Below, one piece after another: positions 1 to 52,000 of a stretch of 64,000 nucleotides of DNA. Position 1 is the first letter of the stretch, and every line of letters begins with the position of its first letter. The translations under genes and the position numbers were made by a program. Origin of the DNA: Chrysoperla carnea (lineage: Eukaryota; Arthropoda; Insecta; Neuroptera; Chrysopidae); contig NC_058342.1 of NCBI RefSeq assembly GCF_905475395.1, forward strand, positions 22,292,640 through 22,356,639. The letters are read 5' to 3'. The notes beneath the pieces are model-generated. The model was not told the DNA's origin, made no database searches, and worked only from the letters and a program-made list of their open reading frames with translations.

Positions 1-1
1 T

Positions 2-481
2 AATAGAACATTTAGTCGTGGTCCTCATTTAGTTCAACATAAACGTGTACACACTGGAGAAAAACCATTTTCATGTGATGTTTGTAATAAAAAATTTAGT
101 CAAAAAGGTTCTTTAGTTACACATAAACGGATCCATAGTGATGAAAAACCATTTTCATGTGATATTTGTAATAAAACGTTTAAATATAAGCAAGCTTTAG
201 TTACACACAAACTAATTCATAGAGGAGACAAAACATTTTCATGTAACATCTGTAATAAAACATTTAGTCTTCGTAATAATTTAATTAAACATAAACTAAT
301 TCATAGTGGAGAGAAACCATTTTCGTGTGATATTTGTAATAAAACATTTAATCAGAAAAGTAATTTAATTAAACATAAACGGATACATACTGGAGAAAAA
401 CCATTTTCATGTGATGTTTGTAATAAAAAATTTAATCAACAAAGTAATTTATTTCAACATAAATGGATTCATCGTCGATAA
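2..481 (+). CDS. C2H2 zinc-finger protein, 3' end only
   Basis: The frame opening at base 2 encodes 159 residues and stops at TAA (479-481); the start lies left of the window. It holds the second half of one finger and five complete C2H2 fingers of the form C-x2-C-x12-H-x3-H, each near-identical around FSCD(V/I)CNK. They are joined by Krueppel-type linkers (HTGEKP, HSDEKP, HRGDKT, HSGEKP). Fingers of this kind normally bind DNA; the target is unknown. After the last complete finger the linker reads HRR then stop, yet the next bases still read K-T-F-x3-DICNK in the same frame. The array therefore once continued, and the present end is a truncation or a recent stop. No orthologue can be named. 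It could be a live gene with a shortened C-terminus or a decaying duplicate. Confidence 0.8.
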   Translation, partial: NRTFSRGPHLVQHKRVHTGEKPFSCDVCNKKFSQKGSLVTHKRIHSDEKPFSCDICNKTFKYKQALVTHKLIHRGDKTFSCNICNKTFSLRNNLIKHKLIHSGEKPFSCDICNKTFNQKSNLIKHKRIHTGEKPFSCDVCNKKFNQQSNLFQHKWIHRR

Positions 482-558
482 AAAACATTTTTGTTTGATA
501 TTTGTAATAAAAGTATTTCTGTCAAAAAGAATTAATGTAATTTATTTTGATATGAAAA

Positions 559-15252: not shown

Positions 15253-15485
15253 TAACTTACTACGTTTAGCTATATCGACTTATTTTGAGTTAAGCTGTGT
15301 GTGGTAAAGCGTTGTAAAGACCTTTTAGTGCACCCTGTATACACACTTAGGCATAATCGAAATCCAGACCATTAGCATTTATTTCTCCTTCATCTTCTGA
15401 TGTTCTTATATATTTTATTACTATTTCAAAATCATTGATTTTATTTAAGCAATGCGAATTTGAATTTGAATGACTCCTTTCAAAC

Positions 15486-18400
15486 ATGGACGGATCTTAT
15501 ACAACGAATAAACTCAGCCGTTCAGGAAGCGGAGAACCTTCTTCAAGTCTTGATGAATATTTTGAAGAAGAAAGCGAAAGTGAATTTTTTGAAGAACAAA
15601 GTTCCGAAAGTTTTGGCGAATATTTTCTTGAAGAAGAAGAACAAAGACCAGAGACTGAAGAATTTGAATATCATCCAAGTGAAAATAGTTCCAAAATTTT
15701 AGACGAATGTCCAAGTTTTCAAGGACAAATTACTGATTTACATGAAGTTGTCGCTGAATATGATCGAACACATCCTTATAAATTTGTGGTAATTAAACCT
15801 CCACCCCCAACTTCGTATTTGGTAGAATTAGCTAAGAAAAATAAAGCACGTATAGATAAATTACCTCCAGAAAAAGAGCGTGACGTTGTACCCCATATGA
15901 ATACATCACATAGAGATATACGTAGCTTTTCTCGCAAAGCACCGATCAGCCGTTTGCCACGAGAATGGCGTAAAACAATGACCCGACTTCTACCACAATC
16001 CTTAACACAAGCTTATCCACAAACCGCATATCTTCTCTATATGGAAATTGATAAACAATATTGGCAAGCAAATGCCCAAATTGCAATTGACCATAAAACT
16101 CTGGCATTACCGGGTGAAGTTGTTGCGAAAAAGACAAAAGATTATAGGTTTGAAGGACGTACGGAGAAATATCCTGAATTTGTAAAAATACGTGCCTATA
16201 TCGAAAGAGAATTGGTTATTTTACGTCCATTATTTCGTAAAGTATTTAAAATGATGTCCGAAAATGTACCAGAATCGCTGGTTGATTTCTCCGAATTTAA
16301 AACGAATACAAGATTTACCTTAGAGGATTTATCATTAAGAATTGCAACCACATTATGGATAGAAAAAAACCGTGTAATGAGACCTTATTTAATGGAGGTA
16401 AAAAAAGATATCTTACGAACAATTTACAAAGAATTTAAACCAATCACTGCCGAATATATCCGCTATATTCACGTTACCCGAAAATTTATCGAGTTACGTG
16501 CAATGGAATTACTGGAACGTACAAACCAAAATTGTCTTGCAGTTTTAAGCAATAAACATCTGATGCCCTATATTAGCTTTTCCTTGAAGTATGATGGAAA
16601 ATTACATTTGAATCCAAGTCTTTCAGAGGTCACACATTTTTTTCGAAAAATTCTAAAAACAACAGAATCAATATCAATTAGATATCTACCAGAAAATCTC
16701 TCAACAAGTTCGAAAAAATTACCAAAACAAACGATACCATCAAGATTTGAGTTAAATTTACCACAATTTATGATTGATTCCGCAAAAGAAAAAGTTGATC
16801 AGAATGTTCGAAATATGTTCGAGCCGGTTGTCCAACACATGCAACAGATCGAAACAAACTTTAAAGTATTATTCGATGAAGAAATGGCAAATGAAATGGA
16901 AGAATTTCTTAATGAAGATCATACGTTCGAGGAAATTAATGGGAAGATCGAATTTTTTCAAGAATATAAATCGAAAATTAATGAAATGGATTATAATGTA
17001 TTTTTCGATCTTGGAATTGTCTATCAATATGGTACTATCCAAACATTGCATAAAGCTGTTGATGGTTATTTAAAGAACCTGGTGAAAGTTTTGATTGAGA
17101 AAAACGCCGAAATGAATCGACAAATTTATAATGAATATGAGAGTATAAACAAACGTGCGTTAAAAGTTCCGGAAAGTACCGCAGAATTAGTTGAGCTTGG
17201 CAAATATATGACCTGGGTCAAACAAGTCTATTTAGCTGAGCTACAAACTCAGATCAAGGACTCTCTACAGCGTATGATCAGGTTAGCTGATCTCACAGAA
17301 ATCACTCGGGATGAAATTGAATCGTGTTCCGAAACGCTAACTTGGATACGAAAAATTAAACCAATATTAGAGGCACACAATTCGATGTTCGAACAACGAA
17401 AAGCTGAACTAGAAGATATATTACATGATACAATCGCTCAATTAGAAAAAAATTTATTTGGATTGACACCATATTTGAAGTTACTTGATGATATGTCGGA
17501 TGGGAAACGTGCACGACAATATTGTGATACGTTACGTCAGATAACGGTTAAAATACAAGATTATGAGAGGACGGTGAAATGGATCAATCAGGAGGAGGAT
17601 TTGTTTAACGTGGCACAATCTACTTTCCCTGATTTGGAGGCATTTAAAAATATTATTTATCCATTTTATGATCTGGTATTTTTGATTGCGAAATGGTATC
17701 GTAATACTTCGGTATGGTTGGACGGGCCATGGGATAATCTTGTGATTGAGGATGTTGACGAGAAAGTGGAGGATGCATACAAAGGTAAGCTCCAAAAATA
17801 ATTAAAATCAGAGAAAAGAATTGTTCGATTTTCAGGTCATTAATTTTGAAATAGGATGGGGGGGGGGTATGATTATAAAGTTAAAAAATATTTAACGCGC
17901 GTAATATTTGACGCATGTGCAAAACGCGTGAGCAAATCTCTCATTTCGTGACTATAGTTTACGGAACGGTTGCGCGAGCGCTGGCGGGTTAAACGACGAG
18001 AACAGAAGTCCGAAAATCTCAGATTTGTTAACATTAAGATAGGTTTTTTTTAAATTTTAGATTTATTTTCACAATATCGTCTGTTGTTTTAAATGGAAGC
18101 TACAGACCTTTTGTATTCACAGGGCTCTGGGCTGCAGCCCAAGAAGCCCTTGAGTAGATCCGCACCTGAGGATATGGTTAGTTAAGGTCGTAAAATACAA
18201 GTTTTAGACTTCTGTAAATCTCATAAAAATCGAAACTCTTATAGGACACTCCTTGGTCCTGTCTATAGGCTTGTCATAGCTAATTTTCTCTGAATATATT
18301 GAACGAACAAAAAAAAGTAAAGTTTGGTACACATACAGCGTGTCACAGTCTCTCTTGGGAAACCGGGAAAACCTGGAATTATTATATCTCGATCAATAAT

Positions 18401-21400: not shown

Positions 21401-24400
21401 ACTTTGATGGCCCGTAGCTTGAAAACTACTCGTTAAAAAAATTTGTGGCCGAGAGAGTTTTTGATCAGAACGATCCGAAGAACATTGTAGGCGCGGTTTT
21501 AAAAAGTTTCACAGAAAGCCATTTTCTTCTATAATCGTGCGGGGTCCTATCCGGTCTCTTGACTTGAACTCTTGCCTATTTAGATTCGATCGCATACTTT
21601 TATTTCTATTTATTTTGTAAAAGCAATTTTGTGTTTTAAAGGTATTTATCGATTATTTTTCGATGAAAATCGTGTCATCCATTCAATGTTCAGTCAAGAA
21701 GGTGAAAATGTTAAACTTTTGGATCAAATCGATACAGATGCCACAAATGGGGCTGTGGAAAAATGGTTAATCCAAGTTGAATCACAAATGTTACGAAGTA
21801 TACGAGAGGAAATCCACCGATCCAAAGTTGATTACGAAACAAAATCACGTCCAAAATGGGTAACTAGTTGGGAAGGGCAAGTTGTTTTATGTGTATCACA
21901 AATATTTTGGGCCAAAGAAACTGAATATTATTTACGTGCACAAAGTGTTTCCGATTTAGCAGAATATTACGAGGATTTAGTCAAAGCTTTGAACGATATT
22001 GTTCGTTTGGTTCGATCACCAGAAATGTCGAATTTAGCTCGAATCACAGTCAAAGCGTTAATTGTTATAGATGTCCATGCGAAAGATGTTATTTATAATA
22101 TGGTCCAAATGGAAATTGATAATATTATGGATTTCCAATGGTTATCCCAGTTGCGTTACTACTGGGAGAATGATCAAGCTATCGTGAAAGTTGTTAACGC
22201 ATCTGTTCCATACGCATACGAATATCTAGGTAACAGTGACCGTTTGGTGATAACTCCGTTAACAGATCGTTGCTATCGAACATTAGTATGCGCTTATCAA
22301 TTACATTTAAATGGAGCACCCGAAGGACCTGCAGGAACTGGTAAAACTGAAACCACAAAAGATTTAGCGAAAGCCCTAGCCGTACAATGTGTGGTGTTTA
22401 ATTGTTCCGATGGCTTAGATTATAAAGCTATGGGAAAATTCTTTAAAGGTTTAGCATCCTGTGGAGCTTGGGCCTGCTTTGATGAATTTAATCGAATTGA
22501 GTTAGAAGTACTCAGTGTTGTTGCTCAACAGATTTTATGTATTATTGTAGCCGTTCGTGCAAATGTGGAAACATTTTTATTCGAAGGTACCGTACTAAAA
22601 TTAGTGCCCTCGTGCTACGTATGCATTACAATGAACCCAGGTTATGCTGGAAGATCTGAGTTGCCAGATAACTTGAAAGTATTGTTTCGAACAGTCGCTA
22701 TGATGGTACCAGATTATGCGTTAATTGGGGAAATCTCGTTGTATTCATATGGTTTTGTGGATGCTCGGAAATTATCTGTAAAAATTGTACAAACTTATCG
22801 ATTATGTTCAGAGCAGTTATCCTCGCAAAATCATTACGATTATGGTATGCGAGCTGTAAAGACAGTTTTATCAGCTGCTGGTAATAACAAATTAGCTTCT
22901 CCGGATGAAAATGAAGATATAATTTTACTACGATCAATTACGGATGTCAACCTTCCAAAATTTCTCTCATTCGATGTACCGTTATTCGAAGGTATTATCT
23001 CTGACTTGTTCCCTGGTATTGTGCTACCAAAACCTGATTACTCGAAACTAATGACTGCATTCCTAGAAATTTGTGCAAAGAAACATATTCAACCTGTACC
23101 AGCATTTTTGGAAAAAATTATCCAAACGTACGAAATGATGATTGTTCGACACGGATTTATGTTAGTTGGGGAACCATTCGGGGGTAAAACAACCTGTTTG
23201 CAAGTTTTAGCGGAATCGTTGTCGTGGATGTTTGAAACCGGTTTGGGGGAAAGCATTGTTGAGTACCAAATCATTAACCCCAAATCAATAACCATGGGTC
23301 AATTGTATGGACAATTTGATGCGGTCTCATATGAATGGTCTGATGGCGTTGTTGCAACTTGTTATCGAAATTTTGCAATGGATCCAAGTCCCAATCGTAA
23401 ATGGGTAATTTTTGATGGCCCAGTAGATGCTGTTTGGATCGAAAATATGAATACGGTTTTGGATGATAATAAAAAACTGTGTTTAATGTCAGGTGAAGTA
23501 ATTGCCATGACAAATGTTATGTCAATGATTTTCGAAGTTATGGACTTAGCACAAGCATCACCGGCCACTGTTTCTCGTTGTGGAATGATTTATTCAGAAG
23601 CAGTTAACGTTGGCTGGGAAGCTATCGCACAATCATGGACCGAAACGACCAACCCAATTTGGATCAAAAGTCGTGAAGAATATATAATGACCTGGTTAAG
23701 ATTTTGGATCCCACCAACGCTTTACTTTGTTCAGAAATATTGTGTAATGTTATCTTTCGCTGGTGAAATAAATTTAGTAAGATCCACGTTGAATTTAATA
23801 GAAATGTTGATGAATACAGCAGTTGAACAATTTCCAGAGGGGAATAAGCATTTCAATGGTTGGATTCAGGCGAGCTTAATTACATCGATTTCATGGGGAA
23901 TTGCTGGAACACTTGATGGACAATCTCGAATTAAATTTGATGAATTTTTTCGAAGTATTTGGACGGGACAACATGAAACACTCAAATTACCGCTTGATGT
24001 AAGCATTTCACTTCCTGGAGATGGGTATTATTTAGATTACTTTTACGTGTATCGCATGAAAGGATCTTGGAAGTATTGGCCAGAGGAAGTTAAATCAATG
24101 CCAGTCCAAGAATCCAAAAGTTTACAGCAAACTTTAGTTCCAACCCTTGATGTTGCTCGATATTTATTCTTATTGAAATTGCATGTTAAATGGAAAAAGA
24201 GACTGTTATTAATCGGTCCAACTGGTACTGGGAAAACATTCTACGTACAAAATTTCATGATGAAAAAACTCAAAATGGATTTATATGAACCTTCCTTTAT
24301 AACTTTTACCGTACAAATAAGTGCGAATCAAGCTCAAGCACTAGTTATTAGCAAATTAAATAAGTGGAAACGAGGAATATATGGACCGGATAAGGAGAAA

Positions 24401-27400
24401 GAAGCAGTCATTTTTGTGGATGATATCAACTTGCCGATTAAGGAAATTTATGGGGCACAACCTCCTATCGAATTATTACGTCAATACTTCGATCACGAAC
24501 ACTGGTACGATTTAAAGGATACAACAAAAATATTTTTGCACCAGTTATTGTTTTTGGCTGCAATGGGTCCTGTTGGGGGGAGTCGACAAGATATTTACCA
24601 TCGATTTTTACGACATTTTAATATTTATTCCATAAATGAGTTCTCGGATGAGAGTTTGTTTAAAATATTTACAAATACACTAATGCAAGGTTTGCGAAAG
24701 AACGGATTTGCAACAGATGTCATGATGAGTGTCATGTATATCGTTAACTCTACCGTGGATATCTATAAACAATCGATAGCAACGCTTCGACCTACGCCAG
24801 CGAAATCGCATTATATTTTTAATTTAAGAGATTTTGCGCGTGTTATTCAAGGCTGTGCAATGATGCGTAAAGAAACTGCTGGTGATGAGAAATCAGTCTT
24901 TGTACGATTATGGGTCCATGAAGTATTACGGGTGTTCTACGATTGTTTGGTGGAAGAAGAGGATCGTAAATGGTTTTTCGAGAGGATTAAGTATAATGTG
25001 CGGGAAAATTTTAAAGCAAGCTTCGATGCTATTTTTGAAGCACACGTACCGAAATTCGATAATCAAGTTACGGAGGAGAGCTTAAAAGATTTAATATTTG
25101 GTAGGTTGAGTAAACAGAGATTTTGGTCGAGTGCAAATTAAGACATAGCTTAGTGACGTGACGTGTAGCAGTTTTTGTAGATGGCGAACAGCAGGTAACG
25201 CAAGTTTATGTGACGCAGATGACGCAGTTTGTACATCATGCCTTTTTATGCAGTAACGACCACGGTGTACACACTTTATCAAATCAGGTATTTTTGTTTT
25301 TTTGATATGTTTACAATGTAAAGGCATTGTTAAATCCAAGTTTTCGACCTCATTTCGATCGATGTAATATTGATTTATAAAGAAGATTAAATTTTCAACA
25401 ATTTGAAGTAAAATCGGTTTTTATAGAACCAATAGTTTTCGCAAATTTCATTTTGTAAACCGTTAGAGGTGAAACAAGTTTAAATATAAAAAATGTTACT
25501 TATAAAAAAATAAACAACTTTTTTTTGAAAGATTTTTTCGTAAACATCACTGTTTACCAGCGAAGGCGTCAAAAATTTTCTAGAATTTTTGTTCGTTTTT
25601 CCAGAATGTTTCACAGCACCACTAGTTGAAGCTACCTTCAAATTTTCAACACTTATCTTTTATAGTTTTATAGTAAATGGACAGCAAAATTTTATCTAAT
25701 TTGCGCCTTCACGAGTAAACGAAAAAATGTTTCAAACAAAAGTTGTTTATTTTTTTATAAGGAACTTTTTTTATATTTAAATTTTTGTTCTATCTCTAAT
25801 AGTTTACAAGATGAACTTTGGCGTAAAATCGTGTAAAATGAAAAAATAGACAATCTTTGAAAAGCTGTATCTCCGAAACTATTGGTTGGTCCTATAAAAA
25901 CCGGATTTATCTCAAATTGTTGAAAAATTTCCACAATTTATGAGAAAAAAACTGAAATAACCTCGGAGCTTTTCTTATTTTTCGGCATGATCCGATCGTT
26001 TGCCGAGGTCGAAAATTTGGATTTAACGTTGCTTTTACATTGCAAACAACATGTTAAAAAGATAAAAATACCTGATTTCATGCAAAGCTCAATGTTTAAT
26101 TTAATTGACCTACTATCACTATACAGAAAAATATACACAGGCACCATTAATATACTCGGATTACACAGTGGCCGCCATCTACGTAAAACTGCGTTACGTC
26201 ACTTCACCAAGCTGCCTCTCAATCTGCTGAGCTCGGCCTTAAAATTTCATTTATTTAGGGCGAAATCATTTTTAGGTTATTAGGTTAGGTTAGGTTAGGT
26301 TATATTGGCTGTCCACGAAGGACACACTTAGGCTATAGAGCCCTAGGTTATTAGTTGAGGAAATAAAGCATTTGGGATGGGAACATAATAATAAAATTCA
26401 TATTTTTACGGGACCGGGCGCGTCTTATTTCCTCAATTAAATTAAGTATAAACATGTTTCCATAAAACGAACCCAAACGTACTCGAAAAATGTTTTCGCT
26501 CCAAATAATTGTAATTTACTTCATCGTATTACAACTAGAATTACTGAATTAGGTGTATTCTTGGATTTGGATTCACCGCCAGAAGAACGGCGTTACGAGG
26601 AAATGCCAGATGTTAAAACATTCTTAAACGTTGCCGAAAACTGTTTAGACGATTATAATAGTTCGCATAAAACGAAAATGATTGTGGTAATATTTCGATA
26701 TGTGTTGGAACATTTATCGAAAGTATGTCGAATTTTATCATTACCATCTGGAAGCGGATTACTTGTTGGAGTTGGTGGTTCTGGTCGGCAATCAATTACA
26801 CGTTTGGCAGCGACGATTTGTGGTTTTGGTATATTCCAACCAGAAATTACAAAAAATTATAACTTAAATGAATGGCGTGAGGATATTAAACGAATTTTAA
26901 AAACAAGTGGAGGTAATTATTAGAATTTTGTTTAAATCATAAATAGAGGACACTTGGTTAAAAACGAAAAAATGATTTTCACCCAAGGAACGGATGATAT
27001 AATATAATCCAAGAGCTGGTAACACATTTAGAGCATGGATTTGATCCATCTAGTTATTAAGCTTAAAAGTATCGTCTATGATAGTGAAATAATTAGTCTC
27101 ACTAGCATCGACAGGTGGCATCAAATTCGTGCTCTAAATATGTCACCAGCTCTTGGAATAGTAATGTAGATAGTACGTTAAAATGGATCTTATTTATTCG
27201 AACTAGCTGTGAACTACCCACTTCGCTGGGTAACTTTAATTTTAAATCAGAGATTATTGAGTTATAACGTTCACTTCATATGCCGTAACGTATCCTCCTT
27301 TTGTTCACAATTTCGTCCATTTTATTATTTTGAATCGGAACCCTAAGTTTGGGGCAAAAGCCCTAGCTGTATTCTGCCACGCTTCGATGAGGTACAATAT

Positions 27401-30400
27401 GGTTTATATTTTATAAAATTTGATAAACCCCCGATAAAAGATCACTGCCGTGCCTTCGCCCTTTGGCCTGATCTTAGACTTTCGGCCTTTTGTCTGACCT
27501 TCGGCCTTTGGGTTTCCATAGTAACGACCCACTACTATATATTAATATAATTATTATATTGTACTAGTTTGATACCGCTAAAAAAAACCGCTTTATAGCC
27601 TCTACATCTCTTGATCTCAGTTATCCCCCTTCCATAATACTTGAAGGGATTGTTTTAGGCAGCTAAAATATATGCATAGTTTTCAATTTTTTTAATTGTA
27701 AATATGTTGTCATAACTCATTGAGTATATTAGAAAAGGTGCCTCTGAATTGTTTGAAATTTATTATTTTAAATTTTTACAGAAATCTTTAATTTATGGTT
27801 CAAAATTATGATCATAGAGCTGCTCCATCTATAATCACCATTTTGAACCATAAATTAAAGATTTCTGTAAAAATTTAAAATAGTAAATGCCAGATTAAAT
27901 TTAACAAACATCCTTACTTTCATTCCCTTTTTCAACCCCTTACAGCCGTTTTTGTTAGTATTAAAAGTGGCCAGCGTCCTTCTTCAGACTCTAGACTATA
28001 TCTGCACCAAGTTTCATTTAAATCGGTTAAGTAGTTTAGGCGTGATTCCGTAACAGACAGACAATGTTATTTTCACATTTATAATATTAGTAAGGATTAT
28101 TGGGTCAAAAATTATATTAAAACACAAAATATTAGTTAAATGTTTTGTTAAAAAATTTATTTTGTTAGGTTTGGGTAAAGATTTAGTCTTTTTGTTCAAT
28201 GAAGGCCAAATAAAGGAAGAAGCCTTCTTACAAGATATTGACGGCTTATTGAATTCTGGTGAAGTGCCCAATATATATGCCATCGATGAAAAACAGGAAA
28301 TATTAGAATTAACACGACTTGCAGCTCAAGGTGGTAACCGATCTTTAGATATTAGTGCCCTAGAAGTCTTCTCATTCTTTGCGAACCGTTGCAAAGAAAA
28401 ATTACATATCATATTATGCTTCAGTCCAATTGGTTCAGCGTTACGAACGCGTCTTCGGTTGTATCCAGCCTTGGTGAATTGTTGCACAATTGATTGGTTC
28501 GAAGGATGGCCAGAAGATGCCTTAGAAATGGTTGCAGAACGATATATGACTGGTGTCAATTTACCAGACGATGTTAAACATAATGCCGTTATTATATGCA
28601 AAATGTTTCATGTGGATGCTAGAGATTATTCGGATGAATTTTATTTGAATTTTGGACGTAAAACTTATATAACATCGGCATCGTATTTGGATTTAATAAA
28701 ATCATTTACGACTTTATGTAATTTAAAACAGGAGGAACTTTTATCAAATCGAAATCGTTACATAATTGGTTTAGAACAACTAGCGTTTGCCGCTGAACAG
28801 GTAATAATTATAGTACAATAAACGAACCTAGAATTTGTTGATTCTTACGAAAATATTGTTTGCTGGGTGTATTGATTTTTTGCATTGACTTCAGAAAACT
28901 ATCCTAAAAAAAATCTAACGGAAAGCGGAACATAAGTGGAAGTTTTTAGATTTAATCGCTGCACCATTGGGGGTGCGACGGTTTTAAAAGTTATCTGATT
29001 TACTTTACGATATAAACCACTTTCACCCCAATGGCGCGGGGGTTAAAACTAAAAACTTCCGCTTTAAACCAAATAGACCTTTTTTAGGATAATTTTCTGA
29101 AGCTAATGCAAAAAAACCGCAAATCAAAACAGCCAGCAAACATTTTCGTCGAAGGTAAAAGTTTCGCGTATTAGGTTAGGTTATATTGGCTGTACACGAA
29201 GGACAAACTTAGGCTAAAGAGCCCATTGTGATACCATATATGTATTTTACCAAGTTTCCACTGATAATTTCATTTATCAGCTTCAGAGGCTGAGTGCACC
29301 TCCTTCGTGCATCTACCATGCGCTACACCAGCCCATCACAACTATTCCGCTACCCTAAGCATACCGCGGACGGATAATATTTCAATTTATATAAAATTTC
29401 AAAATTGCTCCATTGTCTAGATCACATAAATTTGCCCCGGAACGATCTTTTTTGGTGGGTTTTTATGAAAAAAGACGTTTTTTTGGGAAAACTATTGATT
29501 TTTTTTTATAACATTAAATGGGAAAGTTGAAGATACGTATTTTGAGCTAAGACTCGACCCATTATCTTTATCAGTTCTCTAGTCATAAGCAATCGATTTT
29601 TTGCAATTGACAAGATTTTTTCTCGGAAACGGCAGGGGTGGGGGGATGTATAATAATAGTGTGAGAAGGTAACACCTTTCATGTAGGTACTATTTATGAT
29701 ATTTTTTTCGAATTTGAAAATTGATGGACCACCGCTGAAAATTGAGGGAGTTAGGGACCAAAATGAACCTCCTCAGGCCGAAGTATGACTAAATATCTAT
29801 AAAATATCAAAAAATCAAATTTTTTATTATCTTGCCTGGCAGTAATTGCAGAATTAACATTTGGGACATTTTTCAAAAATTAATTACAAAAATTAATTGA
29901 AATTTCATTTTTAGTTAATAATTCATTTTTTATAAATGCCCAAATTTTGAAAAATGCCCAAATGTTAATTCTGCAATTACTGTCAGGCAAGTAAATAACA
30001 AAATTTGAATTTTTGATATTTTGTAAACATTTTGTCTTACTTTGATCTGAGAGGGCTCACTTTTGTCGCAACTTCAAAGTGGCTTAAAATTTCGAAATAA
30101 TTTTTAGAAATCTTATTCCTTCGATTAATACTTGGGGGAAATATCTGAGAAGATTGTGAAAATATTCGAAACCGATCAGTCAAGCCGTTTCAGAGAAATC
30201 TTTCTCACCGACTTTGAAAATGCTGTTTCGAGAAAAACGCGTTTAAAGTTCCAAAGGACGTTTACACTTAGTTAATTTTTGATTTTCGTGCGTTTCTCTT
30301 CGTTAATATTTATCGGATCAACTTGAAATTTTCAGAGAATATACTTAAATTTATGTACATTCCAAAAATTGATTCTTTGAAAATCCTAACTGGATATAGC

Positions 30401-33400
30401 CCCTTACGAAAATCGAATAGCTTTTGCAAGGTATTTAAACAACGAAGTTATTGTTAATACCAAAATTAATCTAGCCATTGGGACGGTTTTAAAATTTGAT
30501 TTCAGATAACTAGAGTCTAGAGTTCTCATAAAGTATTTTTGATAATTTAATAGGTATTAATCATGCAAAAAGATTTGGAGGAATTCAGGCCAAAATTAGT
30601 AGAAATGGCTGCCAATTGTACCGAAATGATGAAAATAATTGAAACTGAAACAGCTCAGGTTGAACAAGCAGGTGCTTTAGTTAAAAAAGATGAAGCGATT
30701 GCAAATATTCAAGCGGCAGAAGCTACAGAGCTAAAAAATGAATGTCAAGCTGATTTAGATACAGCTATGCCAATTATGCAGGAGGCTACCGCAGCCTTGG
30801 ATGTGTTGAATCCGAGTGACATAACAATGTTAAAATCTATGAAAAATCCACCTGAAGTAATAAAAGTCGTTATGGCTGCTATATGCGTGTTAAAAGGTAT
30901 TCCGCCAGAGAAAATTCCTGATCGATCAACGGGACGAAGAATCTTAGATTATTGGGGTCCAAGTAAACGAATGCTCGGTGATATTCGATTTTTAAATTCA
31001 ATTAAATATGAATTCGATAAAGATAATATACCTCCAGCAATTATGCAAAAAATTCGAAGTGAATACTTAACGCATCCTCTGCTTACCGAAAAAAATGTGG
31101 AAAAAGCTTCACTGGCTGCTGCCACTCTATTTAAATGGATGCTTGCCATTAATCAATATGATATAGTAGCAAAAATAGTTGCTCCAAAAAAGGAGAAATT
31201 ACAAGAGGCCGAAGAACAATTAAACGCAACAATGGAAATTTTAGTCCAAAAACAAACAATGCTTAAGAATTTAGAGGAGAGATTAGCCGATTTAAATGAT
31301 CAATTAACAAAAGGTACAGCGGAAATGAAACGGCTAACTGAGGAAGTTCAACATTGTACAAAGAAATTATTTCGAGCTGAGAAACTAATCGGTGGATTAG
31401 GTGGAGAAAAAACACGATGGGAACAGGCAGCTGAACAATTATTACAAACTTATAATTCATTGGCAGGTGATATTTTGGTATCATGTGGTATAATCGCATA
31501 TCTTGCACCATTCACTCTCAATATTCGACAAAAGGCAATCGAAACTTGGTTCGGTTACGTTAAGCAATACAAGCTACCATGCTCTAACAAATTTAGTATA
31601 CGGGAAGCTTTAGGATCGGATATTAAAATCCAATCGTGGTATATACACGGACTACCAAACGATAGTTTCTCAACAGACAACGCGATTATTATGGATTCCT
31701 CGAAACGATGTTCTTTACTAATCGATCCACAACGTCAAGCAAATCGTTGGATCCGTACAATGGAGAAGAAAAATCGGTTATTATGTGTTAAATTCACCGA
31801 TGGTAATTATATGAAAATAATTGAGCACTGTATCGAATTTGGATTACCGGTTCTAATCGAAAATATTTTAGAGACGTTAGACGCCCCAATTGAACCGATT
31901 ATAGAACGTAAAACATACTTTCAACATGGTAGCGAATTTATTGCATTGGGAGAACAAGTTTTAAAAGTGCATAAAATGTTTAAATTATATTTAACAACAA
32001 CATTACGTAATCCTCATTATTTACCCGAAGTTTTTAACATGGTAACGATTATTAATTTTGCGTTAACAATTGAAGGTCTTGAAGATCAATTGTTAGGTAT
32101 TGTTGTTGCAAAAGAACGTCCTGACTTACAAGAATTACGAGAAAAATTGATTATCGAGAGTGCGGAAAATAAGTCGAAATTAAAAGAGGTTGAAACAAAA
32201 ATCTTACGTACAATGAGTGAAACCGAAGGGAATATTCTAGACGATCAAACAGCGATTGATATCTTGGATTCATCGAAAAAATTATCTGAGGATATTATTA
32301 AAAAACAAATATCCGCTAAAGATACAGAAGAGAAAATCGAATTATCTCGAGCAAATTATAAACCTATGGCGAAACATTCAGCTGTCTTGTATTATACAAT
32401 CTCTGAACTCCCAAACGTTGATCCCATGTACCAATATTCTTTGGCTTGGTTCATTAATTTATACATGATGTCGATCGCGAATGCTAGCAGATCGAATGAT
32501 CTAGATAAAAGATTAAAGTTCTTGATAAATACATTTAACTATGATCTCTACCAAAATGTCTGTCGATCGCTATTCGAGAAAGATAAATTATTATATTCAT
32601 TTATTCTGTACAGTAAAATTATGATCTCGAAAAATAAGATCGATGCAAGATTGTACATGTGGTTCCTTACAGGTGGTTCGAGTTTAAAGGTTGATTACGA
32701 GAATCCAGCATCCGAGTGGTTAAATGATACGTCGTGGACTCAATTATGTCAAATAGATGAATTCAGTAGTAGTTTTACAGGATTACGGGAATCATTTCTT
32801 CAAAATATTTCAGCATGGCATGACTATTATGATCTAACAAATCCGCAAGATGTGAAATTCCCAGCACCATGGAATGAAAAATTAAATTCATTTGAAAAAT
32901 TAATATTAATTCGTATTATTCGACCGGATAAAACAATGGTCAGTGTATCGAAATTAGTTGCAATGGAAATGGGAGAAAAATTTGTTACTCCACCTCCGTT
33001 CGATATCGCTAAATCGTATGGTGATTCAAGTTCTCAATACCCGTTAATATTTATTTTATCTCCAGGAGTTGATCCAATGTCTTCGTTACAAAATTTCGCG
33101 GAAAAAATGGGTTTTGAAAACAAGTTTAAATCAATATCCTTGGGACAAGGACAAGGACCAATTGCTACACAAATGATTGCCGAGGCTCAACGTGAAGAAC
33201 ATTGGGTGTGTTTACAAAATTGTCATTTAGCAGTGTCATGGATGCCAAAGTTAGAAAAAATCGTTGAGAATTTCGATGATTTGAATACACGGGCAGGATT
33301 CCGGTTATGGTTAACCAGTTATCCATCGGATAAATTCCCGATTCCTGTTTTACAGTCTGGAGTGAAAATGACAAATGAACCACCACAAGGCTTAACGCAA

Positions 33401-34834
33401 AATATTCTTAAATCGTTTACAACGGAACCGTTAAAAGAGGAAGAATTTTATGATGGTTGTCCAGAAAACAGTAGAACCTTTCATAAATTACTTTATGGTC
33501 TCGCATTTTTTCACGCAATTGTACAAGAAAGACGAACTTATGGATCGATTGGATGGAATATTGCTTATGGATTTAATGAATCTGATTTCCAAATATCTGT
33601 CTTACAATTACAGATTTTTATTAATGAGTACCCGGAAGTGCCATATGTGGCGATATCGTATTTGGTTGGGGAATGTAATTATGGTGGACGAGTCACAGAT
33701 GATTGGGACCGACGATGTTTAAATACAATATTAATTGATTTCCTAAATCCAAAGATTGTTGATGATCCACGATATATGTTTGTAAATGATTTTGGACCGG
33801 CATATGGTGTCCCAAAACACACAGAATATTCCAAGATCATTGAGTTTATCGAACAGCTTCCATCTGTACATCCTCCAGAAGTGTTAGGTTTACACATGAA
33901 TGCTGGTATTCGACGTGATTATAAGGATTCAATGATGTTAATTGATTCGGCAGTTATGGTCCAAGGAAAAGGTGGATCTGAAGGTGGGGGTGGAGAATTT
34001 GATATATTAGGGACGATCGTCTTGGATATTTTAAATAAAATACCAAAACCTTTTGATATGGAAATAGCTTATCAGAAATATCCTACACTTTATACGCAAT
34101 CTATGAACACAGTTCTTTGCCAGGAACTGTTGCGATTTAACAAGTTATTAAATGTAATGCACAAGTCTTTGGTCAATATAAACAAGGCAAATCAAGGTCT
34201 AATGGTAATGTCACCTGATTTGGAAGTACTAGCGCATACGCTAGTTTTAGGAAAAATTCCAGCAGCATGGGCTAAAGTATCGTATCCAAGTTTAAAATCA
34301 TTATCCGGCTATGTAACGGATTTTTGTGAACGTATACAATTCTTACAAAAATGGATTGATAATGGTAAACCAGATAGTTTCTGGTTATCTGGTTTTTATT
34401 TTACCCAAGCGTTTTTAACGAGCTCAAAACAGAATTATGCACGAAAGTATAAGATTGCAATAGATCAATTAGTTTACGATTTTGAGGTGTTGGATTCGGA
34501 TGTTGGTGGAAATCCACCGCCAGATGATGGTGTTCATTGCTATGGATTATTTTTGGAAGGTGCTCGATGGAATACAAATCGTTATTTGGATGAACAAAAA
34601 CCAAAAGTTTTATATGAGCCGTTACCAGCAGTGTGGCTGTTTCCGATTATGTTAAAAGATTATGATGAGAAGGGCAGATATGTTGCGCCATTGTACAAGA
34701 CATCTGAACGAAAAGGTGTTTTATCTACGACAGGTCATTCTACCAATTATGTGTTACCATTTTTGTTGGAAACGAAAAAACCAACCACACATTGGGTTAA
34801 GCGAAGTGTTGCCTTATTATGCCAATTGGATTAA
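15486..34834 (+). CDS. Axonemal inner-arm dynein heavy chain (DNAH3/7/12-like), seven coding exons
   Basis: Exons: 15486-17784, 18834-19452, 20039-20382, 21642-25100, 26553-26912, 28169-28800, 30554-34834; all GT-AG with matching phases, 3997 aa, typical for this clade. Dynein heavy chains are the microtubule motors of cilia and sperm flagella. After an acidic N-terminal run (residues about 20-60) comes the tail, with the linker-start motif RHWDQMSE. The AAA+ ring has P-loops GPAGTGKT (AAA1, about 1316) with Walker [15 protein letters not shown] (AAA2, about 1597), GPTGTGKT (AAA3, about 1946) and GVGGSGRQS (AAA4, about 2313). The stalk and microtubule-binding region lie in about 2575-2880 ([12 protein letters not shown] near 2702). 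AAA5, AAA6 and the C-terminal domain follow, ending [13 protein letters not shown]. The start is fixed by an in-frame TGA at 15471-15473. Clade placement rests on length and remembered similarity; which of DNAH3, 7 or 12 is unresolved. Confidence 0.95.
20432..21128. repeat. Foldback family F, complete copy (dynein intron 3)
   Basis: The left arm (about 20432-20690) and right arm (about 20920-21128) are reverse complements with mismatches. Shared blocks are CGACCATGG, AAAATCTAAAAAAGTTGCA and ATACGTATTTTGAGCTAAGA. A run of ten or more G lies in the middle. A diverged partial copy is at 29400-29750. Confidence 0.8.
21392..21535 (+). repeat. Single unit of the palindromic-array repeat (family H)
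   Basis: Contains GCCCGTAGCTTGAAAACTAC, GAGAGTTTTTGATCAGAACG and GTTTCACAGAAAGCCATTTTC, the same unit that is arrayed head to head at 58915-59665. Lies in dynein intron 3. Confidence 0.75.
25450..25820. repeat. Family A internal part as an inverted pair (dynein intron 4)
   Basis: Left: ACCGTTAGAGGTGAAACAAG then GTAAACATCACTGTTTACC. Right: the reverse complements TTGCGCCTTCACGAGTAAAC, AAACAAAAGTTGTTTA and TTTTGTTCTATCTCTAATAG. Between them is the family's TGTTTCACAGCACCACTAGTT segment. Confidence 0.75.
26281..26347 (-). mobile_element. SINE 3' tail fragment
   Basis: Four TAGGT-type tail repeats followed by TATTGGCTGTCCACGAAGGA and AGGCTATAGAGCCC, identical in kind to the 3' end of the SINE at 48781-49071, in reverse orientation. 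The tRNA-like head is missing. Confidence 0.75.
26995..27165. repeat. Inverted repeat with about 50-bp arms (dynein intron 5)
   Basis: CCAAGAGCTGGTAACACATT on the left pairs with AATATGTCACCAGCTCTTGG on the right; GCATGGATTTGAT pairs with ATCAAATTCGTGC. Small MITE-like element. Confidence 0.75.
27205..27545 (+). mobile_element. Probable non-LTR (RTE-like) 3' tail
   Basis: Starts AGCTGTGAACTACCCACTTC and GCTGGGTAAC, a text I associate with insect RTE-type 3' UTRs (inference). It contains the repeated phrases TTCGGCCTTTTGTCTGACC and TTCGGCCTTTGGG. No coding frame. Confidence 0.4.
27560..28105 (+). mobile_element. Family E element with conserved hairpin, copy 1 of 3 (dynein intron 5)
   Basis: Begins ACTAGTTTGATACCGC and ends with TTTCACATTTATAATATTAG and TAAGGATT, a tail common in RTE-type retrotransposons (inference). 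At 27757-27889 it holds a near-perfect hairpin of about 50-bp arms around TTTATGGTTCAAAAT/ATTTTGAACCATAAA. Other copies: 39451-39966 and 62864-63384. Confidence 0.7.
28846..29151. repeat. Foldback element with about 100-bp arms (dynein intron 6)
   Basis: The outer left CGAAAATATTGTTTGCTGG pairs with the right CCAGCAAACATTTTCG. Inner blocks TTCAGAAAACTATCCTAAAA and GGAAGTTTTTAG pair with their complements in the right arm. No coding frame. Confidence 0.8.
29171..29375 (-). mobile_element. SINE, head-truncated copy
   Basis: Reverse orientation; carries the tail (TTAGGTTAGGTTATATTGGC), the body (TGATAATTTCATTTATCAGC) and part of the tRNA-like head (CTACCCTAAGCATACCGCGG). It has lost the A-box end and an internal segment present in the 47412-47697 copy. 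Confidence 0.8.
29400..29750 (+). repeat. Foldback family F, diverged partial copy
   Basis: Shares GGAAAACTATTGATTT, TACGTATTTTGAGCTAAGAC, TCGACCCATTATCTTTATC and a G-rich run with the copy at 20432-21128. Only one arm is intact. Confidence 0.65.
29755..30068. repeat. Foldback element with about 130-bp arms (dynein intron 6)
   Basis: The left GACCAAAATGAACCTCCTCA...GCAATTAC-type arm pairs with the right arm. GTAATTGCAGAATTAACATT is mirrored by AATGTTAATTCTGCAATTAC, and AAATATCAAAAAATCAAA by TTTGAATTTTTGATATTT. The remainder, 30069-30553, shows nothing recognisable. Confidence 0.8.
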
Positions 34835-36522: not shown

Positions 36523-36528
36523 TTTATT
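36523..36528 (-). promoter_or_regulatory. Candidate AKH polyadenylation signal
   Basis: AATAAA on the minus strand about 120 bp after the AKH stop codon. Confidence 0.45.
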
Positions 36529-36645: not shown

Positions 36646-38486
36646 TTATTTAGCTTCACAGTTGAGTAATTTTTGCGCTTCCATCTGTAATCAAAAATAA
36701 ATTTATTAAAATATTAATTGAATTTATATTAGGTTTTTGGTAGTACATACTTATTACAATACATAATTAAAATAATAAAAAATAATTTTATTATTGGTGT
36801 ATGGCTACAAGTTTTTTTATTTGATCTCAAAATTTGTCGAAAATTTTAAATAGGAGTTCGTAACACATCCTTTTTATCGTTACACGTTGTTTTTGAATTT
36901 TTCCAAATTTCTAACCCTTCTAAAACGTTCATAAGCTTCCCTTTCTTACATGTGTGTAAAATTTCATCTTCAAATTTATGGTCATTTAGAATGCAATGGT
37001 CTGAAAAAGCTGTTGCATCAATGTTTTTTAGTCGAATAGATGCACTATGTTCCTCTATTCTTTCTTTGAATGCGCGGCCCGATTGCCCCACATCATAACG
37101 GGACATTCTGCACTATTAATTTCGTAAATATCTGATTTTTCTTTATCTAAAGTTTTTTGTTTATTATTTACTAATAATTTTGGTAACGTTGTAATAATTT
37201 TGCTAGCTTGTTTTTTAAAGTTCCGTATTGATGAAAAAATGGATCCGTTAAAGAATTAATTTAGTGTTTGTCTGATTTTCAATATGCCTATCAAAAGTTG
37301 AAATTTGAGACAAATTATATAGTACTTATAGTGTAAATAAACGAATTATGATTAGAGGGAAGGGGGATTGGTACTGTAAATTAGAAATCAATAAAAAACT
37401 TTTTTCAATTTACATTAAGGGACATATTAAACGAAAAACTTCGTTATGAGCAATACTAAATAGATTACATCCCTCCTAAATTATTTTTTAAAATTGGGGA
37501 AAAATCTAAAGTATATGACCTAGAGCACAGTTTATAGGAAAAATCTAAGCAAAAACTTTAGTTTGTTTTTAACAAATTGTCGTAGCTTCAGACGTCTGTA
37601 CAATCGAAAGTATTGTTCCTCTGTTAAACTTTTTGAAAATGTAACTTAAAAGTAACTTATTATTTTTATGATCTTAAAAAAGAGCAACAAACGTTAACAC
37701 CGAGTGTAAGCGTTAGTTTCCATGAAAACCGTCATTACCATTAGTAAATTTTTTTATTTTCTCTAGAAAAAGTGCTATTTAGCGTTTTGAGCGAATTAAT
37801 AACTGTCAAAGAGAAATTTACACTGACTACAAATTACTGTATCTGCTAATATAATGATCGCGCAGAAGTCTAGCGAGCATTATTCGAAAGCTGAAAAAGT
37901 ATTCTGTAACGTTCTTATTCCCTCTCTTAGAAAAATGATGGTAGATTTTCTTCAAAAAACAGTAGAGGAGTATGAAGTAATTGGGCACGCATGTAATGGA
38001 AGCGTTCACAAAATGAACTTCTTTAATGCTCGTCGTACGAGCTATTTTGAGCGAGTTAATAACTATGTCAAAGAGAACATATACATTTTCACTTAACTAC
38101 AAATTACTGCATCTGCTGATATAAAGATCGCACAGAGTTCTAACGAGCATCATTCGAAACTAAACGACTAAAACAGTCTTCTCTAATACAAAGGGTACAG
38201 ATATCTGAAATTACGACAATTTTTTTCTTAAAATTCTATTTTAAAAGTCTGTACCCGATAATTAAAAAATGTTTAAACTTACTTGAATCAACTTGTATAT
38301 TTGCATTAAGGAATCAACCGAAACTTTACATTTGGCACCATCGTTTACATCGACGTCTAGGCTTAAACCAGAGTTTCGACTTCGTTTACCCCATCCTGTT
38401 GAGAAATTTAATTGAGCTTCTGATTCAATGATTAATGTTACCAATATTGTGCAGATGACTACGAATACAATTGTTGAACGAACCAT
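36646..38486 (-). CDS. Akh: Adipokinetic hormone precursor, two coding exons
   Basis: Coding exons on the minus strand: 38486-38283 (68 codons) and 36684-36646 (12 codons plus TAA), joined in phase 0 across GTAAGT...TTACAG. The 80-aa product has a signal peptide (1-24, hydrophobic core IVFVVICTILVTLII), then QLNFSTGW (25-32) followed by G-K-R. This predicts the amidated octapeptide pGlu-LNFSTGW-NH2, which I recall as locust AKH-II. The associated peptide (36-80) has the family's two cysteines, Cys53 and Cys77; Cys77 comes only from the last exon (MEAQKLLNCEAK). AKH is released from the corpora cardiaca and mobilises fat-body lipid and sugar. An acceptor TTACAG lies 5 nt before the ATG, so a 5' UTR intron is likely. 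The 1.6 kb coding intron holds a Penelope relic and a direct duplication. Hormone identity is very secure; the terminal exon is strongly supported. Confidence 0.93.
36846..37215 (-). pseudogene. Penelope-like element fragment, GIY-YIG endonuclease
   Basis: Inside the AKH coding intron, same strand as AKH. The frame reads LPKLLVNNKQKTLDKEKSDIY, EINSAECP, then after a one-base frameshift RYDVGQSGRAFKERIEEHSA and FSDHCILNDHKF. This matches the GIY-YIG nuclease end of Penelope-like retroelements (usual form IYxI...CP.xYIGQTGR.F..R..EH). It is broken by the frameshift, and no reverse transcriptase part is seen. Confidence 0.8.
37772..38160. repeat. Direct duplication of about 120 bp in the AKH intron
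   Basis: Units 37772-37890 and 38040-38160 share GCTATTT, TTTTGAGCGA, TTAATAACT, GTCAAAGAGAA, ACTACAAATTACTG, ATCTGCT and CGAGCAT, then ATTCGAAA, in the same order. About 150 bp separates them. Confidence 0.75.
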
Positions 38487-38724
38487 TGTTGCTGTAACAA
38501 TTAAAAAAGATTCATCAAATTACTCCCTAGAAAAATAAAACCGAGAATCAAAAAAAAATAAACATAGAATTCACAAGTAAAAACAAACACTTGACTGAGT
38601 TAATTGATGAAATACCATGTATAGATAGTGTTGATTACGGAATCGTTTGTTTTTTTTACGTTGTTTGGGTGGAAATATAGCCACTCTTAGATAGTCACAG
38701 TTGTGTATACAGTTTGACAACCAT

Positions 38725-38902
38725 CTCGTTAGCCATTTAAAATAAATGAAGTAAGAAGAGTTTTTATGGACGTTCCTATGTATAGAATAAAGAGGAAATG
38801 TACTGTGTGTGATGCGCATTGTACCGATGTGTACAACTTCAAGTGATAAATAACGTCTATAAAAACTCTTCTTACCTCTTATATTTTAAATGGCTAACGA
38901 GG
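38725..38902. repeat. MITE family B, copy 1 of 2
   Basis: CTCGTTAGCCATTTAAAATA pairs with TATTTTAAATGGCTAACGAG; AAGTAAGAAGAGTTTTTAT pairs with ATAAAAACTCTTCTTAC. Arms are about 60 bp. The second copy is at 51456-51693. It lies upstream of the AKH start, in the proposed 5' UTR intron. Confidence 0.8.
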
Positions 38903-42153: not shown

Positions 42154-42265
42154 CAATTGATCAAAGAATTTGATTGTTATAACGAATAATAATTAAAATC
42201 ACTGAAGACCAACAATAGACTGATGCACTGAAGTACAATTGAGATGATATTTGTAATTAATGAGT
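42154..42265 (-). other. Candidate AKH 5' UTR exon
   Basis: On the minus strand a strong donor (GTAAGTCAG) starts at 42153, and a TATA box lies upstream at 42288-42293. About 110 bp of non-coding exon would lie between, spliced over 3.6 kb to the acceptor 5 nt before the AKH ATG. No other nearby open frame explains this donor. Inference only; no transcript seen. Confidence 0.4.
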
Positions 42266-42287: not shown

Positions 42288-42293
42288 TTTATA
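42288..42293 (-). promoter_or_regulatory. Candidate AKH TATA box
   Basis: TATAAA on the minus strand (TTTATAAAGACAATG). Initiator-like TCACTC and TCATTA motifs fall 25-33 bp downstream (about 42260-42268). Confidence 0.35.
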
Positions 42294-47239: not shown

Positions 47240-47835
47240 GCCCATTAGTTGACTTGAGAAAAACACGAAAATTGAATTAAAACACGAAAATTGAATTCAC
47301 CGTCAAATGAACCCGATTTTTGGGTCAAACACAGAGTGAAAAAGTAGGTAAAAACTCAAAATAATTTTTGTTTCGGAATTTGGTAAAAGTTGGTATATAG
47401 AAGGTAATTTTAGGTTAGGTTAGGTTATATTGGCTGTCCACGAAGGACTACAGAGCCCATTGTGATACCATATACGTATTTTACCACTTTTCCGCTGATA
47501 ATTTCATTTATCAGCTCCTCAATTTCAGAGGCTGCGTGCACCTCCTTCATGCATATACTATCCACTACACCAGGCCATCACAACTATTAATTAAATTATT
47601 TTTGTTGCGCGGACGGCGGGAATCGAACCCGCTACCCTAAACATACCGCGGACGGAATTGGTTACGCCTTAACCAACTGAGCTAATAGGGCGACATAGTA
47701 ATTTTGAACCAAAAAATACGAAAATTGGGTTCATTTAACAGTGAAATGAGTAGATTTTGAAATATCGCCCTAAATCTTGTACGAAAAATTGTTTTCGAAG
47801 AATAAATACCGTCAAGTGATTCAAATATTAAGGTT
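47240..47835. repeat. Foldback family M, interrupted by a SINE
   Basis: TCAAATGAACCCGATTTTTG on the left pairs with CGAAAATTGGGTTCATTTAA on the right of the SINE at 47412-47697. The same element, uninterrupted, is at 63385-63713. From 46447 to 47239 nothing else is recognised. Confidence 0.65.
47412..47697 (-). mobile_element. tRNA-derived SINE, full-length, with 8-bp target duplication
   Basis: Reverse orientation. The head has a B box (complement GGAATCGAACC) and an A box (complement CCAACTGAGCTA). The body carries TGATAATTTCATTTATCAGC, and the tail is TTAGGTTAGGTTAGG. The flanks are GTAATTTT at 47404-47411 and again at 47698-47705, a target-site duplication. SINEs are copied by a partner LINE and transcribed by RNA polymerase III from these boxes. 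Confidence 0.88.
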
Positions 47836-49071: not shown

Positions 49072-52000
49072 TTTTGATTGAAATTTTATTTTAGTTTTTA
49101 CATGTTTTTTTAACAAAAAGAGTTCCGTTAAGGATGTTAGTTTTGGAAATTCCGTCATTTAGGTATTTTTTACTAGAATCAAACATTCCGGTTAAGGTAT
49201 GTTGCGAACTATAGTCTCAACATCTGTAATTTATACGAAGATATCATTAATCTTAGTCGGTAAATTAAGTAAAAAAGAAATTTTTTATGTATAGATAGAC
49301 AAATTTACCGAATGAATGTTACAACTTGTCTGGCTAACAATTTTTTAAAAATTTATCCGGCTTAATTTTGAATGCACAGAAAGGATTGAGGTAATTCGAG
49401 TGTTTAAGCAAGTACGGTGAATGATAGTCCAAAGTCCCTTGATCACACAGTTTTGGGGCCTCTTGAGGCTCTTGCGGGGCAAATTTTTGAATTATTTCAT
49501 TTTAAACTTGTGATTTTTAACACAGTACCTTATAGAAGAACTCTAGAAGTTAATTAATAATTAATAGAAGTTAATTGTAAGAACTGGATGTTAATTGTAC
49601 AAAAATTAATCGATGATTGAGCTTCAAAAAAGTTTTCGTCATGAAGAATATTTCACAGATTCTGTTTATGCTAAAAAAAACGTTACCTTATACGGCGCTT
49701 TCCAAAAAGAAAACATAAAAAAACTTTGGTTTTTGACGCTTTTACGATATTTTTAGAATATTTTATTACATTTACGTCATACAAATTGCCTAGTAATTTT
49801 TTTCTAGAATTAAAAAACTTCCGAACGAATTATTCGAACTTATTATCTCGAGTTAGAGACGGTCAAGCGACTTCAAATTTTTATGGTAATTGTATTATTA
49901 TATTCTTAATAAGTAGTATTTCAAATTTTCTGTGACTATGACCATAGCGAGACAATAATTATACAGCCTTAAGATAGAAACATCAAAAGTCTAAAAATTC
50001 AGTGAAAATCAATATATCAACTTTTAATTAATTGAGAAACTGCTAGTTTCAGAAAATCGACTAATAATAATCAACTAATTTGCTCGGTCTAGGTTTTAAA
50101 CCGGATTTATAAGAAATCCCCACGCTTTCCCGTTAACCTTCGATACAGTACATAACTCTATATTTTCGTGGTAAATATGACTAAAAATATTGTATAATAA
50201 AAATAAACTTTAGTCACATTTAGTCATAATTTAGATGTTGTAGTGTCAAATGATATAATCCATAAGCTGTCCGCTCCGTTTGTTGCTTGCTGCTTCGTGC
50301 CTTCGTTGAATTCTGTTTTGTTCAGTTTAGAATGAAATGTCCTTCAATGTATAAAAAAAAGTAGATTGTAACATATAAAATATACACTCTCTCGAGTTGG
50401 CGTCCAGTATAAAAATTTCAAGAGATAAATTCTAGCACGTATATTTATTTTACATATTCATGCTTGTTGAAAAAAAATTTTTCCCTCTGACATGTAAAAA
50501 AAAGTACACATTCGTTTTGTCATATTTTTTTCTGAAAATATAAACTTATTGCACAGTATCGAAAGGCAACGGGAAAAGTTGTCGTGTGTTATAAATCTGT
50601 TTTATGACCTCTAGAACACATTTTATGTAGTTTTTTTTTAACTAAAGCAGGACGTGCTCAATTACGCTGAAATTCAGTAAATCGTTTTAAAAGCGAGGTC
50701 TGTTTTCCAAATTCGAAATCGCCTTTTTCGACGTTTTTATGGCTTAAATCTTCAATGCAGCCTTCCCAAATTGCGCTAATGGATTGAAAACTAGTATTTT
50801 GTTTGGATTAGTGGCAAGATGCTTCTTATAAGGGTTAATGTCAATCCCAGACCTAATTTACTCTTTTTTATATTGAAATATTATGTTTTTCAGGCATTTC
50901 TTTTCTTCAATTTTAACAATTTTTAAATGAATCGAGCCTCGATAAACCGATTCAAGATCGATCCAAGAATCGATTTTTTTGAATGAGTCACCCATCCTTA
51001 TTTGTATATGTCAACTTTCTAGACCCCCTACCGGTATTTTATGTAGATATTGCATATTTTCAAAAATTGGGATTCACATAAATCTCATTTCAATAAAATG
51101 AATCTTTTAATAAAAAATATAAAATGAGGGGGCAATATGACTTCAGTGATGGAGATCTGTCCGAGTTTTTTTTTCTTTATTCTATGATGATGTTTATATT
51201 AAAAACAGTTAAAAATCGATATAACCAGTGACGGATTTATAATATGCTTTTGGATATTTTGAAACTATATGAACCATATTGTCCTTCTCCTCTTTCTATA
51301 AACTATGACGTTTCGAATTTAATTTTGAAATTCGAATTGAAATCTAGAGAATTTTATTATTTTTATAATCCATGACGTGTTTATATTTTTAAACAATTGA
51401 AAATCGATATGAACAGTGTCGGATTTCTCATAGTTTTGAACCCTCTGTTTTCAAGCCATATCGTTAGCCATTTATAATATATGAAGTAAGAAGAGTTTCT
51501 ATGGACGTTCTTATGTATACAACAAAGAAGGAATATGTACTGTGTGACAAAGAGGGAATGTGTACAATTTCCAAATATAAGTCTGACCGGCTGTGTTCAT
51601 GTATACACACATACAACCCCTCTTTGTTTTATACATAAGAACGTCCATAGAAACTCTTCTTACTGCATATAATATAAATGGCTTACAATATGGTTCCAAA
51701 CAATTAAAGCAATACTGGCTTCCATGCATTGCGTAGATATAGAATTTATCTAGCGTTGGCAGTCGGCTACCTGCCACCAAAAATTTCCATGCCATAGAAA
51801 ATTAAATTTTTTGATATTTTGATCGTATTGTTTTCTTGATATTTTAAACTCAAAATGACTTAACACATATAATTACTGAAATATTGAATCTATAAGTAGA
51901 AACGCGTATTTCCGAAAATAAAATTGAATATCTAAAAAATTGAATTTTCAAAATAACCATAATTTGTTTTGAAGTAAAATTTCAAAACTATTAGATTGAT

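Follow-up and report, generated by a model that had tools for sequence, protein, structure and literature searches.

The minus strand of the window (the whole 64,000-nucleotide stretch of DNA that was analyzed) almost certainly carries an ordinary arthropod, most likely insect, gene for adipokinetic hormone (AKH), which mobilizes fuel reserves; it has two coding exons, a phase-0 intron, and an 80-residue preprohormone. Coding exon 1 (38283..38486, minus strand) has a length of 204 bp (68 codons). Its translation reads MVRSTIVFVVICTILVTLIIESEA-QLNFSTGW-G-KR-...CKVSVDSLMQIYKLIQ and, together with Pfam and hydropathy, indicates a signal peptide, the octapeptide QLNFSTGW, a G-KR site, a linker, Cys53, and the ending IYKLIQ. 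The terminal coding exon (36646..36684, minus strand; 39 bp) continues the frame of exon 1 in phase 0 as MEAQKLLNCEAK, followed by TAA, and carries Cys77, as seen in translation and by Pfam. The exon coordinates and the 38283/36684 junction proposed in a sequence-only reading of this locus all hold in the sequence. That reading also stated correctly that exon 1 reaches an in-frame stop only inside the intron: the unspliced frame runs through six intronic codons (VSLNIF) to a stop ending at 38262. The gene layout and the AKH family membership are supported by these sequence features, and splicing, processing, disulfide formation, and release from the corpora cardiaca may be expected by analogy with the family.

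Spliced translation gives a precursor of 80 residues. Residues 1–24, directly before QLNFSTGW, are predicted to be a signal peptide on the basis of hydropathy and position only. The N-terminus is hydrophobic (nine-residue hydropathy means reach 3.41) and ends SEA/Q, with cleavage presumably after SEA. The octapeptide occupies residues 25–32, and is followed by G33 as the amidation donor and then by the KR cleavage site. The QxxxxxxW motif and GKR have been described as AKH features (PMC12028090), and both are present here as QLNFSTGW-G-KR; the G-KR directly after the octapeptide agrees with the amidated QLNFSTGW that had been predicted. The cysteines of the spliced precursor are at positions 12 (within the signal peptide), 53, and 77. 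Cys53 and Cys77 are encoded by different exons and separated by 23 residues, and the second conserved cysteine is thus supplied by the terminal exon, as had been claimed. Beetle AKH precursors have a C-terminal Cys-peptide with two cysteines (PMC6585902), and Cys53 and Cys77 provide the same arrangement in this sequence. The same source describes the Cys-peptide as being of unknown function and proposes that it takes part in transport to secretory granules (PMC6585902).

In six frames of the whole window, the AKH-like octapeptide motif occurs once, at AKH exon 1. A further AKH-like gene anywhere in the window was rejected on the basis of this single match, in a scan that would miss any motif interrupted by an intron. 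A loose motif for the C-terminus, composed after the terminal exon had been seen, has three occurrences: the terminal exon itself, one on the opposite strand, and one on the same strand upstream of exon 1.

The spliced protein scores 54 bits against Pfam PF06377 (Adipokin_hormo; gathering score 22.9), which bears out the earlier assignment of the gene to AKH. This is the sole Pfam-A family for the joined protein, with residues 25–78 aligned to profile positions 1–50 of 51. In comparison, exon 1 alone scores 36.5 bits and the unspliced open reading frame (ORF) 37 bits, and both alignments end at profile position 40. The 12 residues of the terminal exon therefore raise the score by 17.5 bits (from 36.5 to 54). 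Read as a rough log-odds value, this gain corresponds to a chance of about 5e-6 per trial, which across the 181 AGs within 4 kb becomes about 0.001. Searches of the AKH precursor against NCBIfam (E up to 1) and against solved structures (E up to 10) gave no match. For genomic copies in relatives, 81 pattern matches in genome contigs and 10 in viral contigs were obtained, of which 0 were confirmed by tblastn.

As a control, all AGs in the 4 kb past the donor were considered (181, including the proposed acceptor). Filtering for an in-frame tail of 4–60 residues with a Cys among tail residues 5–17 kept 23 AGs, including that of the proposed exon. The 22 other filtered acceptors and two that lack that Cys were scored, for a total of 24 of the 180 others. 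All 24 were rejected, with scores of 36.2 to 41.4 bits vs. 54 bits for the proposed exon. The 39-bp, 12-codon terminal exon put forward earlier is therefore upheld, both by the 17.5-bit gain and by the lower scores of all 24 scored alternatives.

The intron (36685..38282, minus strand; 1598 bp) is a phase-0 GT-AG intron, with the donor CAA/GTAAGT and the acceptor GATTACAG/A. The donor matches eight of nine positions of a generic donor consensus, and is the best among the 21 GTs listed in 38486–38200. The acceptor, in the context TTTTTGATTACAG/ATG, is 65 nt past the preceding AG, which is the longest such gap among the 21 CAG sites listed in 38282–36400; among all 51 CAG/TAG sites of this interval, two TAG sites, both located downstream of the exon, show gaps of 65 and 107 nt. 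The pyrimidine tract of the acceptor is middling (10/16), with 11 pyrimidines in four other sites and 10 in eight others.

Three other explanations of the locus may be weighed against this model. If the intron were retained, a 74-residue precursor ending ...KLIQVSLNIF would be produced, with the same hormone and a precursor-related peptide with one cysteine. The ORF does stay open for six codons beyond the donor, to the stop ending at 38262, and the octapeptide and KR are wholly inside exon 1. However, the retained form scores only 37 bits vs. 54 bits when spliced, the donor is strong, and a family-like Cys tail is found in phase after an acceptor, such that retention appears highly unlikely. 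The same low probability applies to regulated intron retention, which would yield one precursor with a single cysteine and another with two, the hormone being unchanged; in that case the precursor-related peptide could exist as a cross-linked dimer or with an internal loop.

Slightly less probable still is the joining of exon 1 to another acceptor, or its alternative splicing to an additional 3′ exon. In favor of this, 4 kb of sequence contains 181 AGs, and the pyrimidine tract is slightly richer at four CAG/TAG sites, but the scored alternatives (24/24) gain at most 4.9 bits and a poly(A) signal string is present downstream of the proposed stop. Finally, the intron and flanks contain repeats and a retroelement-like fragment, which may raise the suspicion of an AKH pseudogene or decaying copy. 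We consider this the least probable explanation, given that the start, signal peptide, hormone, GKR, both cysteines, splice sites, and stop are all intact, and that the Pfam score is well over the cut-off of 22.9.

For the transcript ends of the two-exon gene, a candidate AATAAA poly(A) signal (36523..36528, minus strand), identified by string match only, is located about 120 bp beyond the stop. Just before the AKH start codon, a TTACAG (38492..38497, minus strand) followed by CAACAATGG is a possible acceptor, and its sequence suggests a 5′ UTR intron. A tentative noncoding first exon may be placed at 42154..42265 (minus strand), with the donor CAATTG/GTAAGTC and an intron from 42153. Near this candidate there are a TATAAA at 42293 and an initiator-like TCACTC near 42265, and this combination of TATA, initiator, and GTAAGT near 42.3–42.15 kb could possibly represent the first exon. 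The candidate is weak because chance would give a similar number of such strings: over 7.5 kb, GTRAGT occurs three times (3.4 expected), and TATAAA-like strings occur seven times.

Several repeats are present around the AKH exons. Within the AKH intron, 36846–37106 (minus strand) contains a fragment reading RYDVGQSGRAFKERIEEHSASIR..., the upstream portion of which lies in a different frame. This fragment, which has no match in Pfam or NCBIfam, looks like the end of a retroelement that carries the GIY-YIG nuclease. The intron also holds a direct repeat (37785–37889 and 38045–38159; about 115 bp, 82% identity). Just upstream of AKH exon 1, a self-inverted repeat at 38725–38901, with related pieces near 51456–51695, is probably a small transposon. 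Short runs of TTAGG, a common arthropod telomere unit, are found at 47410–47424, 26280–26299, and 29171–29180. The run at 47410 ends a stretch that, as read by eye, starts tRNA-like near 47690 (minus strand), and this stretch is perhaps a SINE. ARAGORN found no tRNA in the whole window, and Rfam at gathering scores gave no match there.

The window as a whole is AT-rich (27–38% GC in 2-kb steps) and eukaryotic. A multi-exon axonemal dynein heavy chain gene extends over about 18–35 kb on the plus strand, with Pfam matches to five dynein families at 30554–34834 (plus strand) and axonemal heavy chain 12 (DNAH12) as the closest PDB match for 21584–25141 (plus strand). The open frame at 15474–17801 has no Pfam match at 0.01, and is grouped with the dynein gene by position only. 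In addition, an exon near 5.5 kb is SRP54-like, and positions 1–512 (plus strand) hold a tandem array with an 84-bp unit, the consensus of which resembles C2H2 zinc-finger repeats by eye.

By analogy with the AKH family, the signal peptide would be removed from the 80-residue preprohormone, and cleavage at KR would free the hormone from the precursor. G33 would provide the C-terminal amide and the N-terminal Gln would cyclize to pyroglutamate, such that the predicted mature product is pGlu-LNFSTGW-amide, i.e., the known Schgr-AKH-II. The remainder, SRNSG...CEAK, would be the AKH precursor-related peptide, probably with a Cys53–Cys77 disulfide. The locus provides a complete coding gene model for the AKH precursor of one species, and illustrates that family profiles are the best way to find tiny terminal coding exons. 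It leaves the understanding of AKH genes or peptides unchanged, and both the layout and the hormone have precedents in other insects.

In the literature searched, three exact precursor fragments had no occurrence, and a search for AKH with a phase 0 intron and a small exon found no paper. Close counterparts have been published. In Tribolium castaneum, the two AKH2 exons measure 162 and 45 bp and amount to 68 codons plus the stop, of which the terminal exon supplies 14 codons and the stop; because 162 is divisible by three, its intron is in phase 0 (PMC12028090). The two genes are alike in having two coding exons, a long first and a very short last one, and a phase-0 intron, and differ in exon sizes (204 and 39 bp here) and precursor length (80 vs. 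68 residues). Tribolium AKH2 is therefore a direct precedent for a tiny phase-0 terminal exon, and the view of the "hidden" exon as unusual was overstated. AKH genes vary in structure: Tribolium AKH1 is described with exons of 69 and 171 bp and without a tiny last exon (PMC12028090), and Drosophila AKH with an exon 1 that reaches only as far as the first hormone residue and with no tiny last exon (PMC8733639); the present gene is unlike both. More generally, one or two introns interrupt the coding region of insect AKH genes, one of them often in the same place and in phase 0; this shared intron is also found in oyster AKH, and corazonin genes are similar (PMC5024129). The present gene resembles insect AKH genes (e.g., Bombyx AKH-1 and -2) and oyster AKH in its preprohormone layout and phase-0 coding intron, and its intron is likely the one that most insect AKH genes share. 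The predicted mature octapeptide is identical to Schgr-AKH-II (pELNFSTGWamide), which is tabulated with a mass value of 934.44 and is known from Schistocerca, many Orthoptera, several bugs (among them Coreidae), and Hymenoptera (PMC10926376). Given its presence in Orthoptera, some Heteroptera, and Hymenoptera, the peptide is not diagnostic of one species. Lists of AKH peptides also give this octapeptide for Nasonia vitripennis and Argochrysis armilla (PMC5831470).
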